From contig NC_008048.1 in NCBI RefSeq assembly GCF_000013985.1, positions 186,001-250,000 on the forward strand: a DNA stretch of 64,000 nt. Direction: 5' to 3'. This stretch comes from Sphingopyxis alaskensis RB2256. Its GTDB lineage: Bacteria; Pseudomonadota; Alphaproteobacteria; Sphingomonadales; Sphingomonadaceae. Numbering within the stretch: the first letter of the stretch is position 1; every line of letters starts with the position of its first letter. A program made the translations under genes and the position numbers. Below are positions 20,494 through 38,312 of this stretch, piece by piece. Under the pieces are notes generated by a model, which was given only the letters and a program-made list of their open reading frames with translations, ran no database searches and had not been told where the DNA came from.

Positions 20494-20576
20494 CCGTTCG
20501 CATCGAGCGAAGTCGAGATGCCTATCGGCCGGGCGCGTGCCGTCGGCGTGTCTCGACTTCGCTCGACACGAGCGGG
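20494..20576. repeat. Palindromic intergenic repeat, family B (copy B1)
   Basis: Left arm CCGTTCGCATCGAGCGAAGT (20494-20513) continues into CGAGATGCC; right arm GTGTCTCGACTTCGCTCGAC (20548-20567) continues into ACGAGCGGG. The arms pair across a 25-nt GC-rich loop. Related copies are at 31444-31549 and 38231-38312. The element fills the gap between the PlsC and PlsB genes. Confidence 0.82.
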
Positions 20577-31443: not shown

Positions 31444-31549
31444 CCGTTCGTGTCGAGCGAAGTCGAGACACCCATCGGTGTAGCTCCGTTCCCAGGGGCA
31501 TCTCGATCTTTCGACCGGCTCAAGACAGGCTTCGCTCGATGCGAACGGG
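31444..31549. repeat. Palindromic intergenic repeat, family B (copy B2)
   Basis: Left end CCGTTCGTGTCGAGCGAAGT and right end CTTCGCTCGATGCGAACGG (31531-31549) pair; internal GGGGCATCTCGATCTTTCG is a further partial unit. It separates the small lipoprotein gene from lysA. Confidence 0.75.
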
Positions 31550-33906: not shown

Positions 33907-34932
33907 TCATTGATTCAGTCCATGTTTTTTCAGCGCGTGGCGAATCTGGTCGTAACTCAGGCCAAGCGCCTCGGCGGCGACTTTCTGGTTATAGCGGCAT
34001 CGCGCCATCGTGTCGGCGAGGATCGCCTTTTCATAGCTGTCGACCGCAGCGCGCAGGTCGCTCACCGGGCCCGGCGAGGGTGACGGCGCGGCGGGAGGGG
34101 CGGCGACGGACGCCGCGGCGTTCGCACGTTCGGCCTTCGCCGCGCGCACCGTGGGTTGCCACGGGCTGGCAAAGGGGTCGAAGCTCAATGCGTCGATCGG
34201 CTTCGTCGGATCGCCCCAGCGATAGACGGCGCGCTCGATGACGTTCCTGAGTTCGCGGACGTTGCCCGGCCAGTCGTGCCCTTCCATCGCCGCCAGCGCG
34301 CGCGGGCCGAATCCGGGCCATTCGTCCCAGCCGACGACCGCCGCCATGCGCTGCCCGAAGTAAGTGGCAAGCACCTCGATATCGCCTTCGCGTGCGCGCA
34401 AGGGGGGCAGGGTGATGACCTCGAACGACAGCCGGTCGAGCAGGTCGGCCCTGAACCGGTTTTCTTCGACCAGCGCGGGGAGATGCTCGTTGGTCGCCGC
34501 GACGATGCGCACATCGACGCGGATCGGGCGCGACGCGCCGACGCGCGTGATCTCGCCATATTCGACCGCGCGGAGCAGCCGTTCCTGCGCGCCCATCGAC
34601 ATGGTCGCCAGTTCGTCGAGAAAGAGCGTGCCGCCGTCGGCCTCCTCGAAGCGTCCCGCGCGGCTGCGCGTCGCGCCGGTGAAGGCGCCCGCTTCGTGTC
34701 CGAACAGTTCGCTTTCGATCAGCGTCTCGGGCATCGCGGCGCAGTTCATGATCACATAAGGCCGATCCCAGCGCGTCGACAGACGGTGCAGGCGCTCGGC
34801 GATCAGTTCCTTGCCCGTCCCGCGCTCGCCGATCACCAGCACCGGGCGGTCGAGCAGCGCCGCCTGGCTCGCGCGATCGACCGCGTCCTGAAAGGCCGCC
34901 GACTGGCCGATGAATTGCGTTTCGCGCTCCAT
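33907..34932 (-). CDS. pspF: PspF, sigma-54 enhancer-binding activator of the psp operon
   Basis: 341 aa. It lacks an N-terminal receiver domain, as PspF does. Walker A GERGTGK (35-41), the sigma-54 contact loop GAFTGA (82-87), Walker B GGTLFLDE (100-107), and a Fis-type HTH at the C-terminus (NQKVAAEALGLSYDQIRHAL). PspF activates pspA and is held inactive by PspA in non-stressed cells. ATG 34932 is chosen because the longer frame needs a TTG at 34968 and covers the upstream repeats. It is divergent from the psp operon, as in enterobacteria. Confidence 0.95.
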   Translation of the reverse strand: MERETQFIGQSAAFQDAVDRASQAALLDRPVLVIGERGTGKELIAERLHRLSTRWDRPYVIMNCAAMPETLIESELFGHEAGAFTGATRSRAGRFEEADGGTLFLDELATMSMGAQERLLRAVEYGEITRVGASRPIRVDVRIVAATNEHLPALVEENRFRADLLDRLSFEVITLPPLRAREGDIEVLATYFGQRMAAVVGWDEWPGFGPRALAAMEGHDWPGNVRELRNVIERAVYRWGDPTKPIDALSFDPFASPWQPTVRAAKAERANAAASVAAPPAAPSPSPGPVSDLRAAVDSYEKAILADTMARCRYNQKVAAEALGLSYDQIRHALKKHGLNQ

Positions 34933-34940
34933 TCCCAACC

Positions 34941-34968
34941 ATTGGCAAATTTCCCCGATGATTGGCAA
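34941..34968. promoter_or_regulatory. Candidate PspF upstream activating sequences (direct repeats)
   Basis: ATTGGCAA occurs at 34941-34948 and again at 34961-34968, 20 bp apart (about two helical turns). They lie about 95 and 115 bp before the start point predicted from the -24/-12 promoter at 35033, the distance expected for PspF hexamer sites, and just upstream of pspF, which would allow autoregulation. Confidence 0.6.
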
Positions 34969-35032: not shown

Positions 35033-35048
35033 TGGCACGCCTCCTGCA
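35033..35048 (+). promoter_or_regulatory. Sigma-54 (-24/-12) promoter of the psp operon
   Basis: TGGCACG-N4-CTGCA: the GG (35034-35035) and GC (35046-35047) doublets have the required 10-base separation, and the only deviation from TGGCACG-N4-TTGCA is one T to C. The predicted start point is near 35059. PspF is encoded divergently 100 bp away. Confidence 0.9.
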
Positions 35049-35106: not shown

Positions 35107-35277
35107 ATGAAAACGAAGATTGCCCAGGCCGCTACTTTCGCGTTCAGCGCGGTGGGCGCGCTGGCCATTTTCGTCGGCGCGATCAACTATCCTGCCGCCT
35201 CTGCCAGCGCCGCCGGCCTCCCCGTCGTCGGCCTGGTGGGTGCTGCTTCGACCCCGGCGGTCGGCCCGATGGCCTGA
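35107..35277 (+). CDS. 56-aa hydrophobic leader protein of the psp operon
   Basis: First gene after the sigma-54 promoter, with AGGAAGG 8 bases before ATG 35107. The 56-aa product has one hydrophobic helix (FAFSAVGALAIFVGAI) after a short basic start, then small residues (AASASAAGLPVVGLVGAAST). It could be a membrane peptide or a cleaved secreted peptide. I do not recognise a family; it is not PspD, PspE or PspG by sequence pattern. A strong terminator-like hairpin separates it from pspA, so it may be made in larger amounts than the rest of the operon. Confidence 0.7.
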   Translation: MKTKIAQAATFAFSAVGALAIFVGAINYPAASASAAGLPVVGLVGAASTPAVGPMA

Positions 35278-35378: not shown

Positions 35379-36041
35379 ATGGGTATTTTTTCACGAACCC
35401 GCGACATCATCGCCGCCAACGTCACCGACCTGCTCGACCGGGCCGAGGATCCTGAAAAGATGATCCGCCAGATCATCTTCGAGATGAACGAAACGCTTGT
35501 CGAAGTTCGCGCTTCCGCCGCCCGCACCATTGCGGACCAGAAGGAGATGCGCCGCCACATCGCCAAACTCGAGAGTCTGCAGGACAGCTGGAAGGAAAAG
35601 GCCGAACTCGCGCTGTCGAAGGACCGCGAAGACCTCGCCACCGCCGCGCTCGTCGAAAAGCAGAAGGCCGGCGACATGGCCGAGCGACTCAAGGCCGAGA
35701 TCGCCGTCCTCGACGACGCGCTGTCCGGTTATGAAGCCGACATCGCCAAGCTTCAGAAAAAGCTGTCGGAAGCGCGCGCGCGCCAGTCGAATATCGTCAA
35801 CCGCCTCGAAAGCGCCGAGAACCGCTATCGCCTCCGCGAAATGACCAACGGCGACCGCGTCGAAGACGCTTTCTCGCGCTTCGAGATCCTTGAGCGCCGC
35901 GTCGACGAAGCCGAGGGCCGGGCCGATGCGCTGGGTCTCGGTTACAAGAAGTCGCTCGACGAAGAGATCGCCGAACTTCAGGCTGCCGACAAGGTCGCCG
36001 ACGAGCTCGCCGCGCTGAAGGCCGCGCAGGCCAAGAAATAA
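35379..36041 (+). CDS. pspA: Phage shock protein A (PspA/IM30 family)
   Basis: 220 aa, the PspA length. FSRTRDIIAANVTDLLDRAEDPEKMI is replaced here only in detail: GIFSRTRDIIAANVTDLL (2-19) forms the amphipathic membrane helix, then a long alpha-helical hairpin rich in Glu/Lys/Ala follows, as in ESCRT-III-like PspA. PspA oligomers guard the inner membrane and inhibit PspF. AGGAG lies 8 bases before ATG 35379; the longer frame from 35334 starts in the terminator. pspB follows after 12 bp. Confidence 0.96.
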   Translation: MGIFSRTRDIIAANVTDLLDRAEDPEKMIRQIIFEMNETLVEVRASAARTIADQKEMRRHIAKLESLQDSWKEKAELALSKDREDLATAALVEKQKAGDMAERLKAEIAVLDDALSGYEADIAKLQKKLSEARARQSNIVNRLESAENRYRLREMTNGDRVEDAFSRFEILERRVDEAEGRADALGLGYKKSLDEEIAELQAADKVADELAALKAAQAKK

Positions 36042-36053
36042 GGAGCCGGACCG

Positions 36054-36329
36054 ATGGAAGAAGTCATCATCGTCCCGATCGTCATCGGAACGCTCTTCCT
36101 CGGTCTGCCCTGGCTGATCCTCCACTATATCACCAAGTGGAAACAGGCCAAGACGCTGACCGGAGAAGATGAACAGCTGCTCGACGAACTTTACGATACG
36201 GCCAGACGGCTCGAGAATCGTCTACATACCGTCGAACGGATTATCAGCGCCGACCATCCCGACTTCCGCCCCGCGGTACGCAGCGATGAAGAGCTGGCGC
36301 AGCTTGAAAACATAAACCGGAGGAACTGA
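36054..36329 (+). CDS. pspB: Phage shock protein B
   Basis: 91 aa. One N-terminal membrane helix (IIVPIVIGTLFLGLPWLILHYI) then a basic segment and coiled coil (LYDTARRLENRLHTVERII) ending with SADHPDFRP, a typical PspB. PspB works with PspC in the inner membrane to sense stress and relieve PspA inhibition of PspF. The RLENRLHTVERII motif is the template repeated in the five small genes downstream (36744-38210). Confidence 0.93.
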   Translation: MEEVIIVPIVIGTLFLGLPWLILHYITKWKQAKTLTGEDEQLLDELYDTARRLENRLHTVERIISADHPDFRPAVRSDEELAQLENINRRN

Positions 36330-36330
36330 G

Positions 36331-36711
36331 ATGTCTGCCAGCCGCACCAAATTCTACCTCGACAAACAGAACGCCAAATGGAGCGGCGTATGTTCGGGAA
36401 TCGCGGACTATAGCGGGATCGACGTGCTCTGGGTTCGCGTCGGCGCCGTGCTGCTCACCCTGATGGGCGGCTTTCCCTGGACGTTGATCGCTTACTGGAT
36501 GGTCGCCTGGATGGGATCGCCCAAGCCTTTCGCGCTATACGGATCGCAGGAAGAAGCCAAGTTCTGGCAAGGGGTGCGCAGCAACCCCGCCGCGTCGACC
36601 CGCGACATCAAGTCGCGCTTTCGCGACATCGATCGCCGGCTTGCCGACATCGAACTTTACTACACCAGTCACAACCGTCGGCTCGCCGACGAGATTGAAA
36701 GCCTGCGCTGA
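36331..36711 (+). CDS. pspC: Phage shock protein C
   Basis: 126 aa. The PspC domain is clear: KFYLDKQNAKWSGVCSGIAD near the N-terminus, DVLWVRVGAVLLT and a second hydrophobic segment (GGFPWTLIAYWMVAWMG), followed by a cytosolic or periplasmic helical tail (DIDRRLADIELYYTSHNRRL). It is the polytopic partner of PspB in signal relay. One base separates it from pspB, and 32 bp from the first PspB-like gene. Confidence 0.94.
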   Translation: MSASRTKFYLDKQNAKWSGVCSGIADYSGIDVLWVRVGAVLLTLMGGFPWTLIAYWMVAWMGSPKPFALYGSQEEAKFWQGVRSNPAASTRDIKSRFRDIDRRLADIELYYTSHNRRLADEIESLR

Positions 36712-36743: not shown

Positions 36744-37043
36744 ATGAATTTCGGTGGCACCACCTTCGTCCTCGCCATCATCGCCCTGTCGATCGGCGGC
36801 TGGATGTTCACCACCTGGATCCGCGCCAAGCATGGCTATCCGGTCGAAAATGAATGGGGTGGCACGGTTCATCGAACCGACCCCGACGCTGATCGAAAAA
36901 TCAGGCTCCTGACCGACGACAATGCCAAGCTCGCCAGCCAGGTCAGCCGGCTGGAGGAACGGATCGCGGTGCTCGAAAGGATCGCGACCGAAGAGGGCGG
37001 CAAAGCGGCACAGCTTGCCGATCAGATCGACCGCCTGCGCTGA
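36744..37043 (+). CDS. PspB-like membrane coiled-coil protein 1
   Basis: 99 aa. N-terminal membrane helix (TFVLAIIALSIGGWMFTTWI), a basic/aromatic stretch RAKHGYPVENEWGG, then a coiled coil SRLEERIAVLERIATEEG. RxKxGYPxEN is shared with protein 2 (37052), so these two are the closest pair. The RLEERIAVLERIA core matches PspB RLENRLHTVERII. No enzymatic motif. GGGAG precedes the ATG by 8 bases. The role is probably in the Psp membrane complex (inference from operon and similarity). Confidence 0.82.
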   Translation: MNFGGTTFVLAIIALSIGGWMFTTWIRAKHGYPVENEWGGTVHRTDPDADRKIRLLTDDNAKLASQVSRLEERIAVLERIATEEGGKAAQLADQIDRLR

Positions 37044-37051
37044 GGGGAAAA

Positions 37052-37372
37052 ATGATGAATCTCGATGTTCTGAATGCCATTGCACCCGTGGCGGCCCTCG
37101 TCGGCCTCGCCGGGGTCGCGGGTTGGGTTTTCACCACCTGGCTGCGCGTCAAGAACGGCTATCCGCTCGAAAACAGCTGGGGCAAGGCGGTCTATCCGCG
37201 CACCAATGACGAAGCGATGGAGCGCGTGAAGCTGATCAGTCAGGAAAATGCCCAGCTGCGCGCCGAGCTTGGCTCGGTGAAGGACCGGCTGGCGGTGGTC
37301 GAGCGCATCGTCACCGACGAGAGCCACCGCGTCGCGGCCGAGATCGAGGCGCTGCGGCGTCCCGCGAACTGA
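37052..37372 (+). CDS. PspB-like membrane coiled-coil protein 2
   Basis: 106 aa. Membrane helix (VAALVGLAGVAGWVFTTWL), then RVKNGYPLENSWGKAVYP, nearly the same linker as protein 1, and the coiled coil SVKDRLAVVERIVTDES. Two ATGs in tandem (37052, 37055); GAGGGG lies upstream. It begins 8 bp after protein 1, so they are co-translated. The shared FTTW-x-R-x-K-x-GYP-x-EN block with protein 1 points to a recent duplication. Function unknown; a stress-sensing partner of PspC/PspA is the most economical guess. Confidence 0.82.
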   Translation: MMNLDVLNAIAPVAALVGLAGVAGWVFTTWLRVKNGYPLENSWGKAVYPRTNDEAMERVKLISQENAQLRAELGSVKDRLAVVERIVTDESHRVAAEIEALRRPAN

Positions 37373-37384
37373 GGAGATAGGTAG

Positions 37385-37648
37385 ATGGAAACGATCATCA
37401 TCCTGTTCATCGTCGTCGGCCTGCCGGTCACGCTCGGCATCGGCTACGCCGCCTATGAACGTCACCTCAAGTTCAAGGAACGGCAGTTCCAGGCGATCAG
37501 CAGCGAGACGGCGGAAAAGGCCGCGCAATATGCGGTGCACACCGAACGGCTCGAACAACGCGTCCGCGTGCTCGAACGCATCGTGACCGACAAGGGAATT
37601 GACGTCGCCGACGAGATCGAAAAGCTGCGCGACGCCCCGCTCAACTGA
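37385..37648 (+). CDS. PspB-like membrane coiled-coil protein 3
   Basis: 87 aa. Membrane helix (IIILFIVVGLPVTLGIGYAAY), a charged stretch ERHLKFKERQFQAIS, and the coiled coil RLEQRVRVLERIVTDKG, close to PspB both in length and in the helix sequence (VVGLPVTLG against GTLFLGLPW in PspB). It lies 12 bp after protein 2 with GAGGAGATAG upstream. The coiled coil ends with DEIEKLRD, also found in protein 4. Confidence 0.82.
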   Translation: METIIILFIVVGLPVTLGIGYAAYERHLKFKERQFQAISSETAEKAAQYAVHTERLEQRVRVLERIVTDKGIDVADEIEKLRDAPLN

Positions 37649-37680
37649 CGCAACGATAAAAGCAGGAAAGGAACCTCCCC

Positions 37681-37941
37681 ATGGGTCCGTTTGAAATGGT
37701 CGTCGGCATCGTCCTCATCGTGACGATCGGCAGCATTATCCGCGCCAGGTACGGCATCCGGCGCGACCGCCACGGCAACGGCCATGTCGCCGGACACGAC
37801 GTCGAGACCAAGGCGCTGCAGGCCGAAATCCGCGCGCTCAAGGAGCGCATTCAGGTGCTCGAACGCATCGCCACCGACCATAATCGCGCCGTCACGCTCG
37901 ACCAGGAAATCGAGAAGCTGCGCGACGGCAGCAAGATCTGA
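37681..37941 (+). CDS. PspB-like membrane coiled-coil protein 4
   Basis: 86 aa. Membrane helix (FEMVVGIVLIVTIGSII), a basic/His-rich linker (RARYGIRRDRHGNGHVAGHD), then LKERIQVLERIATDHNRA and QEIEKLRDG. The His-rich linker is unique among the paralogues and might bind metal or sense pH (speculative). AGGAAAGGAACC precedes ATG 37681. Function is not known beyond membership of the psp operon. Confidence 0.82.
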   Translation: MGPFEMVVGIVLIVTIGSIIRARYGIRRDRHGNGHVAGHDVETKALQAEIRALKERIQVLERIATDHNRAVTLDQEIEKLRDGSKI

Positions 37942-37964
37942 ACGCCGGTAAAGGAGCAACGCTC

Positions 37965-38210
37965 ATGGCTTTCATCACTCCCGACCTCACCACCGCCGCG
38001 ATCGCGCTGACCGCGCTCACCATCGTCAGTCTCGTCGCGCTGCGCGGCTGGCGCGACTGGATCCAGCTCAAGCGCGAGGAGCTCGCCGCGGGTCACACCC
38101 AGCTGGCGCACGATCCCACGGTGCCGCACGCCGGATCACGGATCGAGATTGCCGACCTCAAGGAACGGCTGCGCAAGCTGGAAGCGATCGCGGCAGGGGT
38201 CGATCTGTAA
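37965..38210 (+). CDS. PspB-like membrane coiled-coil protein 5
   Basis: 81 aa. Membrane helix (TAAIALTALTIVSLVALRGW), a charged linker (RDWIQLKREELAAG) and a shorter, more diverged coiled coil (LKERLRKLEAIAAG). It is the last gene of the psp operon and the least like PspB, having lost the ERI part of the core motif. AAGGAG lies 8 bases before the ATG. A family B palindrome follows and may end the transcript. Confidence 0.78.
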   Translation: MAFITPDLTTAAIALTALTIVSLVALRGWRDWIQLKREELAAGHTQLAHDPTVPHAGSRIEIADLKERLRKLEAIAAGVDL

Positions 38211-38230: not shown

Positions 38231-38312
38231 CCGTTCGCATCGAGCGAAGTCGAGATGCCCCGCGGCCCGGCGCACGGTTGCAGGGTGTCTCGACTTCGCT
38301 CGACACGAACGG
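38231..38312. repeat. Palindromic intergenic repeat, family B (copy B3)
   Basis: Left arm CCGTTCGCATCGAGCGAAGT (38231-38250) and right arm ACTTCGCTCGACACGAACGG (38293-38312) pair across a GC-rich loop. Nearly the same as the copy at 20494. It ends the psp operon. Confidence 0.85.

Follow-up and report, generated by a model that had tools for sequence, protein, structure and literature searches.

A conserved array of small membrane-protein genes behind pspC in the Sphingomonadaceae

Results

The window analyzed here, a stretch of 64,000 nucleotides from the genome of Sphingopyxis alaskensis RB2256 whose own numbering is used throughout, carries canonical psp genes followed by five small open reading frames. 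The gene for the sigma-54 enhancer-binding activator PspF lies divergently on the minus strand (33907..34968; TIGR02974, 1.4e-141, over the cut-off), and direct reading of the sequence places a sigma-54 -24/-12 site, TGGCACG-N5-TGCA, before the operon on the plus strand (35033..35048). All genes that follow are on the plus strand: a hydrophobic leader ORF of 56 aa before pspA (35107..35277), pspA itself (35379..36041; TIGR02977, 1.4e-80, over the cut-off), a canonical pspB (36054..36329; TIGR02976, 3.5e-26; PF06667, 2.9e-28) and a canonical pspC with a C-terminal tail (36331..36711; TIGR02978, 4e-34; PF04024, 3.5e-15). Two more PspC-domain matches are found in this genome off the operon (G000:C2:1798894-1799061 and 1002629-1002781).

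Behind pspC, a preliminary description made from the sequence had reported five consecutive genes of 81-106 aa at 36744..38210, and these ORFs were found with coordinates and lengths as given, all on the plus strand. We refer to them as p1 to p5 (alpha to epsilon); they encode proteins of 99, 106, 87, 86 and 81 aa, respectively. The intergenic gaps from pspC-p1 to p4-p5 are 32, 8, 12, 32 and 23 nt, and a purine-rich stretch precedes the ATG of each ORF. The product of p1 (36744..37043) is a predicted single-pass membrane protein with a PspC-like tail and the juxtamembrane signature WxRAxHGY; that of p2 (37052..37372) has the signature TTWxRxxxGYPLxxxWG, and p3 (37385..37648) is marked by AEKAAQYA. 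The protein encoded by p4 (37681..37941) begins with PFEMVV, an N-terminus common to several unlinked or single relatives, and p5 (37965..38210) encodes a separate small membrane protein with the C-terminal end RIEIADLKERLRKLEAIAAGVDL. The motif FTTW-[IL]-R-[AV]-K-[HN]-GYP-[VL]-EN that p1 and p2 had been said to share is present, as are the core segments quoted for the five proteins. A palindromic repeat with 33-nt arms, 85% complementary, lies behind the array (38231..38312) and is a possible transcript end; sufE (PF02657, 6.3e-34) comes after it. The repeat core, TCGACTTCGCTCGA, occurs 5 times in the window, where 0.11 matches are expected, at 20503-20566, 31453-31466 and 38231-38312, including two inverted pairs of the same spacing, one of which is the pair behind the array.

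The single N-terminal membrane helix proposed for each protein agrees with what we find, namely a single hydrophobic stretch close to the N-terminus, with K/R after it, in each of p1-p5. Among orthologues of up to 125 aa, a hydrophobic 19-mer is present in 93-99%, depending on the group, and K/R content is higher after it than before it in 95-99%. The predicted topology thus has the C-terminus in the cytoplasm in all five groups, as in PspB, and for p1-p4 the N-terminus outside. AlphaFold2 models of p2 (helices 4-35, 42-47 and 52-102; pLDDT 75, pTM 0.33) and p5 (two helices; pTM 0.39) are plain helical arrangements of modest confidence, an anchor helix and a further helix. Among solved structures, neither the PspB nor the PspC of the window had a match with E of 1 or less; the family profile had six, the best at 0.041, to prefoldin and other unrelated coiled coils.

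The distribution of the array was assessed in 146 non-redundant psp loci obtained from 149 (the window, 60 chosen by place, 80 named and 8 further Sphingopyxis loci), after L144 and L156, in which no pspC was found, and the duplicate L122 had been left out. The 80 named loci were picked by similarity to the PspA of the window and lean to its close relatives, while 33 loci of the window's family, taken as the Sphingomonadaceae, come from an even genome draw and were picked for having PspB (L044-L076). In the 119 loci of this family, p1-p4-type copies behind pspC number one in 3 loci, two in 11, three in 35, four in 51, five in 16 and six in 3; the counts for the 14 loci with one or two copies are as found, regardless of contig ends or missed ORFs. 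All 33 genomes of the even draw carry three to six copies behind pspC. A p5-type gene is present in 116 of the 119 loci and in 30 of the 33. Among 27 loci of other families within the same taxonomic order, 24 had no copy at E <1e-9 and three had one. The proposed paralogous amplification tied to psp was thus borne out across loci, with the genes lying behind pspC in this family.

Four kinds of copy recur, each with its own juxtamembrane signature and a tail common to all. By group models, p1 is found in 96 of the 119 loci, p2 in 91, p3 in 101 and p4 in 109. The ortholog groups were built from Sphingopyxis seeds and checked by motif (25 seeds per kind, of which 22, 23, 22 and 9 passed); sorting orthologues by separate iteration of p1-p4 profiles was dropped when the profiles merged. 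Eleven copies fall outside the four groups. A tree built with 128 sequences, taken from 33 of the 146 loci, gave clusters matching the kinds, with mixed branch supports. The commonest order, p1-p2-p3-p4, occurs in 43 of the 119 loci, and a recurrent variant, seen in 5, places a p3-type gene first. No single kind is indispensable, since all four occur together in just 59 of the 119 loci and in 18 of the 33 from the even draw. Within the genus of the window, taken as Sphingopyxis from the nearest named loci, the p1-p5 profile finds five to seven matches in 23 of 25 genomes, a count that includes the PspC tail; the exceptions, G125 with three matches and G133 with one weak match, are both incomplete assemblies. 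The genes p1-p5 are under purifying selection, with median dN/dS values in Sphingopyxis of 0.175, 0.220, 0.397, 0.291 and 0.220 (0.066-0.080 for pspA, pspB and pspC); the highest value belongs to p3 (0.40), for which one pair reaches 1.17.

A sigma-54 survey covered 106 of the 119 family loci; the other 13, which include the locus of the window, were set aside because upstream sequence or pspA was missing. Of the 106 loci, 95 carry a site matching at 10 or more of 12 positions ahead of pspA, and 103 have no such site in the 1.76 kb behind pspC. This arrangement suggests that the array belongs to the PspF/sigma-54 operon and is probably co-transcribed with pspABC. A hydrophobic ORF of 30-85 aa lies upstream of pspA in 72 of the 106 loci, and in Sphingomonas parapaucimobilis a CDS annotated as 'hypothetical protein' occupies this leader position.

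The preliminary description interpreted the five genes as paralogues arising from duplication of the PspB module. With curated models, the canonical Psp proteins alone pass. None of p1-p5 reaches the PspB cut-offs (PF06667, 25.6 bits; TIGR02976, 51.7), the best scores being 17.7 and 16.8, both from p3; against TIGR02978 (cut-off 104 bits) they reach at most 22.1, and no PF04024 match is listed for any of them. Below the cut-offs, p1, p3 and p4 are weak matches to PspB, p2 and p3 are weak matches to the C-terminal part of PspC (1.1e-4 for p3 with TIGR02978), and p5 has no match. Comparison of profiles, built on alignments from related loci, gave 96% for the p1-p4 family with PspB over anchor and tail, 94% with PspC, 93% with p5 and 1% with PspA, which served as a coiled-coil control; PspB compared with PspC gave 51%. 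When tails alone were compared, p1-p4 scored 33.5 (95%) with the PspC tail, where 60 heptad-preserving shuffles had a mean of 10.6 and a maximum of 21.1, and a marginal 23.2 (78%) with the PspB tail, where 60 such shuffles had a mean of 10.5 and a maximum of 21.2. A coiled-coil control of 48 PspA windows of 42 columns gave at most 15.8 in the tail comparison.

These controls bear on the possibility that the encoded proteins are generic small membrane coiled-coil proteins with an unrelated, for example divisome-like, function that merely share a transcript with pspABC. Weak subthreshold matches of the array proteins to DivIC/FtsL-like and other coiled-coil models speak for it. Chance coiled-coil likeness is nevertheless rejected by the shuffles, the PspA windows and the PspA profile, and relatives outside the Sphingomonadaceae are confined to PspB-bearing genomes of the draws described below, so that we regard an unrelated function as very improbable. 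A merely generic coiled-coil likeness to PspB, named in the preliminary description as an outcome that would count against it, was likewise not what we observed over anchor and tail, with the PspB tail by itself being marginal.

The resemblance to PspB lies in the same length, a single N-terminal membrane helix, positive-inside topology, a cytoplasmic helix with an RLExRhxxxERI core and a place in the same operon. The array proteins differ from PspB in that they score below its cut-offs and stand beside a canonical pspB in the window, and p1-p4 lack the PspB end after ERI and have instead a TDxxxxLxxEIxxLR end in common with PspC. The tail consensus common to all four kinds is ERIxTD..EIxxLR. 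The PspC C-terminal tail (approximately 64-121 of TIGR02978) gives the best tail-to-tail score for p1-p4, and p3 aligns with the PspC of the window gap-free over the last ~25 residues, with the same LR end. The alignment of the p1-p4 family with PspC runs through the anchor to the last residue, and in a single BLASTP comparison p3 (residues 5-82) matched PspC from residue 40 to its end with 22% identity (E 6e-4). Unlike this part of PspC, the array proteins are separate polypeptides, and they have neither a PF04024 match nor the first membrane helix. Based on the profile, tail and BLASTP comparisons, p1-p4 are best described as a PspB-like single-pass anchor joined to a PspC-like C-terminal tail. 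The claim of a duplicated PspB module is right as to amplified, psp-linked paralogues that are related to PspB by profile; it is too narrow because the PspB cut-offs are missed and the tail is closer to PspC, and plain PspB duplication is rejected as the full account. PspD and PspG, which belong to the PspF regulon of enterobacteria, are likewise small accessory proteins of the membrane; no PspD or PspG model is among the listed family matches of p1-p5.

The fifth protein requires separate treatment. At E <1e-6 its iterated profile stays apart, with 113 members compared with 422-423 for p1-p4, yet profile comparison relates the two as given above. Thus, of the five PspB-like paralogues proposed, p1-p4 form one family and p5 appears to lie outside it, as a distant companion. 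The C-terminal segment RIExADLKERxRKLEAIAxGVxL is strongly conserved in p5 orthologues, more so than the rest of the protein, and is possibly a binding or degradation signal.

Outside the Sphingomonadaceae, relatives were sought with a profile (A3) combining p4 and single relatives. Of the 83 genomes sampled from the order outside the family, it matches 56. At least 13 of these, from one family (f8), have a psp-linked copy, in the same orientation as pspB and ~1 kb or less away; elsewhere among the matches listed the relatives are unlinked, for instance following a sigma-70 gene in L185 or next to a GAF-domain gene in L184, L186 and L189. In 299 genomes drawn evenly from the phylum, A3 matches 26 (E up to 1e-4) and canonical PspB is found in 41. 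Setting the Sphingomonadaceae aside, a relative occurs in 13 of 29 PspB-bearing genomes of this draw and in 0 of 257 without PspB (Fisher 6.5e-15, which ignores phylogeny), and each of the 13 lies either on a different contig from pspB or at a distance of over 75 kb. The corresponding numbers for the order are 56 of 72 and 0 of 11 (Fisher 8.1e-7, which also ignores phylogeny, and several of the 11 genomes are incomplete). PspB-bearing genomes that have no relative number 16 of 29 in the phylum draw and 16 of 72 in the order. A draw of 289 genomes of the class, searched with a narrower profile, gave five matches, four of them in the Sphingomonadaceae. The preliminary description had held that finding the genes mostly away from psp operons would speak against it: inside the family they are in the operon, and outside it they are mostly unlinked, though confined to genomes that bear PspB.

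Regulation of these unlinked relatives by PspF, of the kind seen for pspG, was tested and not supported, as there is no clear sigma-54 site before them: 2 of 33 have 10 of 12 matches and none has 11, with 1.2% and 0 in control windows. Stress induction is therefore not general to the p1-p4 family.

The four group models were applied to 38 relatives, comprising 33 outside any array, three linked to psp and the two of a genome lacking PspB (G053, discussed below). The best model is p4 for 24 and p3 for 14, with a p3-p4 gap that is often a few bits, and p1 or p2 for none. For this reason p3 and p4 look ancestral and p1 and p2 newer. The array seems to derive from an older gene of single copy, which persists unlinked to psp in further families and classes, and not from a recent copy of pspB. 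Tandem pairs of relatives occur away from psp (L222, L227, L235, L236, L237), from which it seems that duplication of the relative gene happened more than once. In a genome of another class, two canonical PspB matches lie in tandem (G632:C1:1117368-1117807).

Discussion

How PspB and PspC perceive membrane damage is an old open question. The two proteins form a membrane complex, and in Yersinia the C-terminal cytoplasmic domain of PspC is reported to bind PspA in the stress-on state, by which PspF is freed (PMC5596341). A leucine-zipper motif of PspC is described as a determinant of its interaction with PspA, and two PspC topologies are discussed (PMC3068692). Our comparisons suggest that in the Sphingomonadaceae this switch may have more than one membrane input. 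We consider it about an even chance (a probability of roughly 0.5) that the products of the array are accessory subunits of Psp in the membrane, which would bring several inputs to one output. According to this proposal, the tails of p1-p4 would bind the same partners as the PspC tail, that is PspB at rest and PspA under stress, and their differing transmembrane and juxtamembrane parts would respond to or contact different membrane features. Induction from the PspF/sigma-54 promoter, which lies upstream of the array, would supply further subunits, and this could provide both positive feedback and more sites at which PspA docks on the membrane. Several findings weigh on the other side: the curated PspB and PspC cut-offs missed by all five proteins, a PspB tail score barely beyond its best shuffle, the incomplete sets of kinds in many loci, dN/dS values above those of pspABC, the unlinked relatives with no clear sigma-54 site, the PspB-bearing genomes that have no relative, and models that are plain helices.

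One genome of the family (G053), a single case and the sole representative of its genus in the sample, has no PspB over the cut-off. Its operon consists of pspA, pspC, a p3-like gene and a p4-like gene; the PspC, of 88 aa, ends soon after the membrane part without a tail, and the p3-like and p4-like proteins are the best TIGR02976 matches of the genome, both below the cut-off. The retention of these two genes despite the loss of pspB and of the PspC tail is consistent with accessory subunits. It would also suit an effector role without any sensing, in which the proteins are made in bulk after induction and offer extra PspA docking sites that build or hold PspA assemblies at the damaged membrane, and to which the downstream position in a presumably inducible operon and the PspC-like tail also lend themselves. 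It is not obvious why such a role should require four kinds whose distinct juxtamembrane signatures are maintained throughout the family, nor does the role sit easily with unlinked relatives that have no clear sigma-54 site, and we judge it unlikely.

G053 also bears on the idea that the array proteins act as decoys, with tails that titrate away PspB or PspA and so shut down the response once it has been induced. Probable co-induction with pspABC fits this idea, and such a tail, binding PspB or PspA but lacking the other parts of PspC, could act as a competitor of PspC. Titration alone leaves the four kinds unexplained, however, and G053 keeps the genes though the competing PspC tail is absent, which makes negative feedback of this sort more doubtful still than an effector role. 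The two alternatives share tail binding with the accessory-subunit reading and differ in its consequence, and the present data do not separate them firmly.

Building on the reading as accessory subunits, we tentatively suggest, and with rather less than even confidence, a history for the genes. They would represent an unnamed family of Psp accessory proteins that is found in more than one class as unlinked single genes confined to PspB-bearing genomes, and that was captured behind pspC and amplified in the Sphingomonadaceae to up to four kinds of receptor, with p5 beside them. Members of the family would be able to replace PspB and the PspC tail, as in G053, and would act as interchangeable inputs to one PspA-docking tail. 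Paralogues that combine one output tail with different membrane parts, together with a genome such as G053, would make input separable from output by simple deletions.

The array is genuine and conserved, and both its place in the genome and its co-occurrence tie it to Psp; it is not a new system. It had been put forward as undescribed, and this holds in part, insofar as no fuller description was found among the open-licence papers searched. In the portions of Ravi et al. 2024 available to us (PMC11237479), 'PspB duplicates' in the psp operon are mentioned in one clause with one example, AOL22920.1, and divergent PspB domains are noted at the PspC C-terminus. The likeness to the array is that of extra PspB-type genes in a pspFABC operon; copy number, orthologous kinds and unlinked relatives are absent from those portions, and AOL22920.1, whose organism they do not state, can be likened to the array by its operon description only. 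The main text of a 2022 survey (PMC9239133), as far as it was accessible, contains no word beginning 'Sphingo', and the available text of a report on Zymomonas (PMC3495753) names a hypothetical gene beside psp and no array. In the record of Sphingomonas parapaucimobilis, each of the four genes that separate pspC from sufE bears the annotation 'hypothetical protein', and for this reason the description of Psp in a large environmental family may be incomplete. In the same species, the psp operon and its array are located on a secondary replicon of 880 kb (L244; NZ_CP155749.1, 774116-781346).
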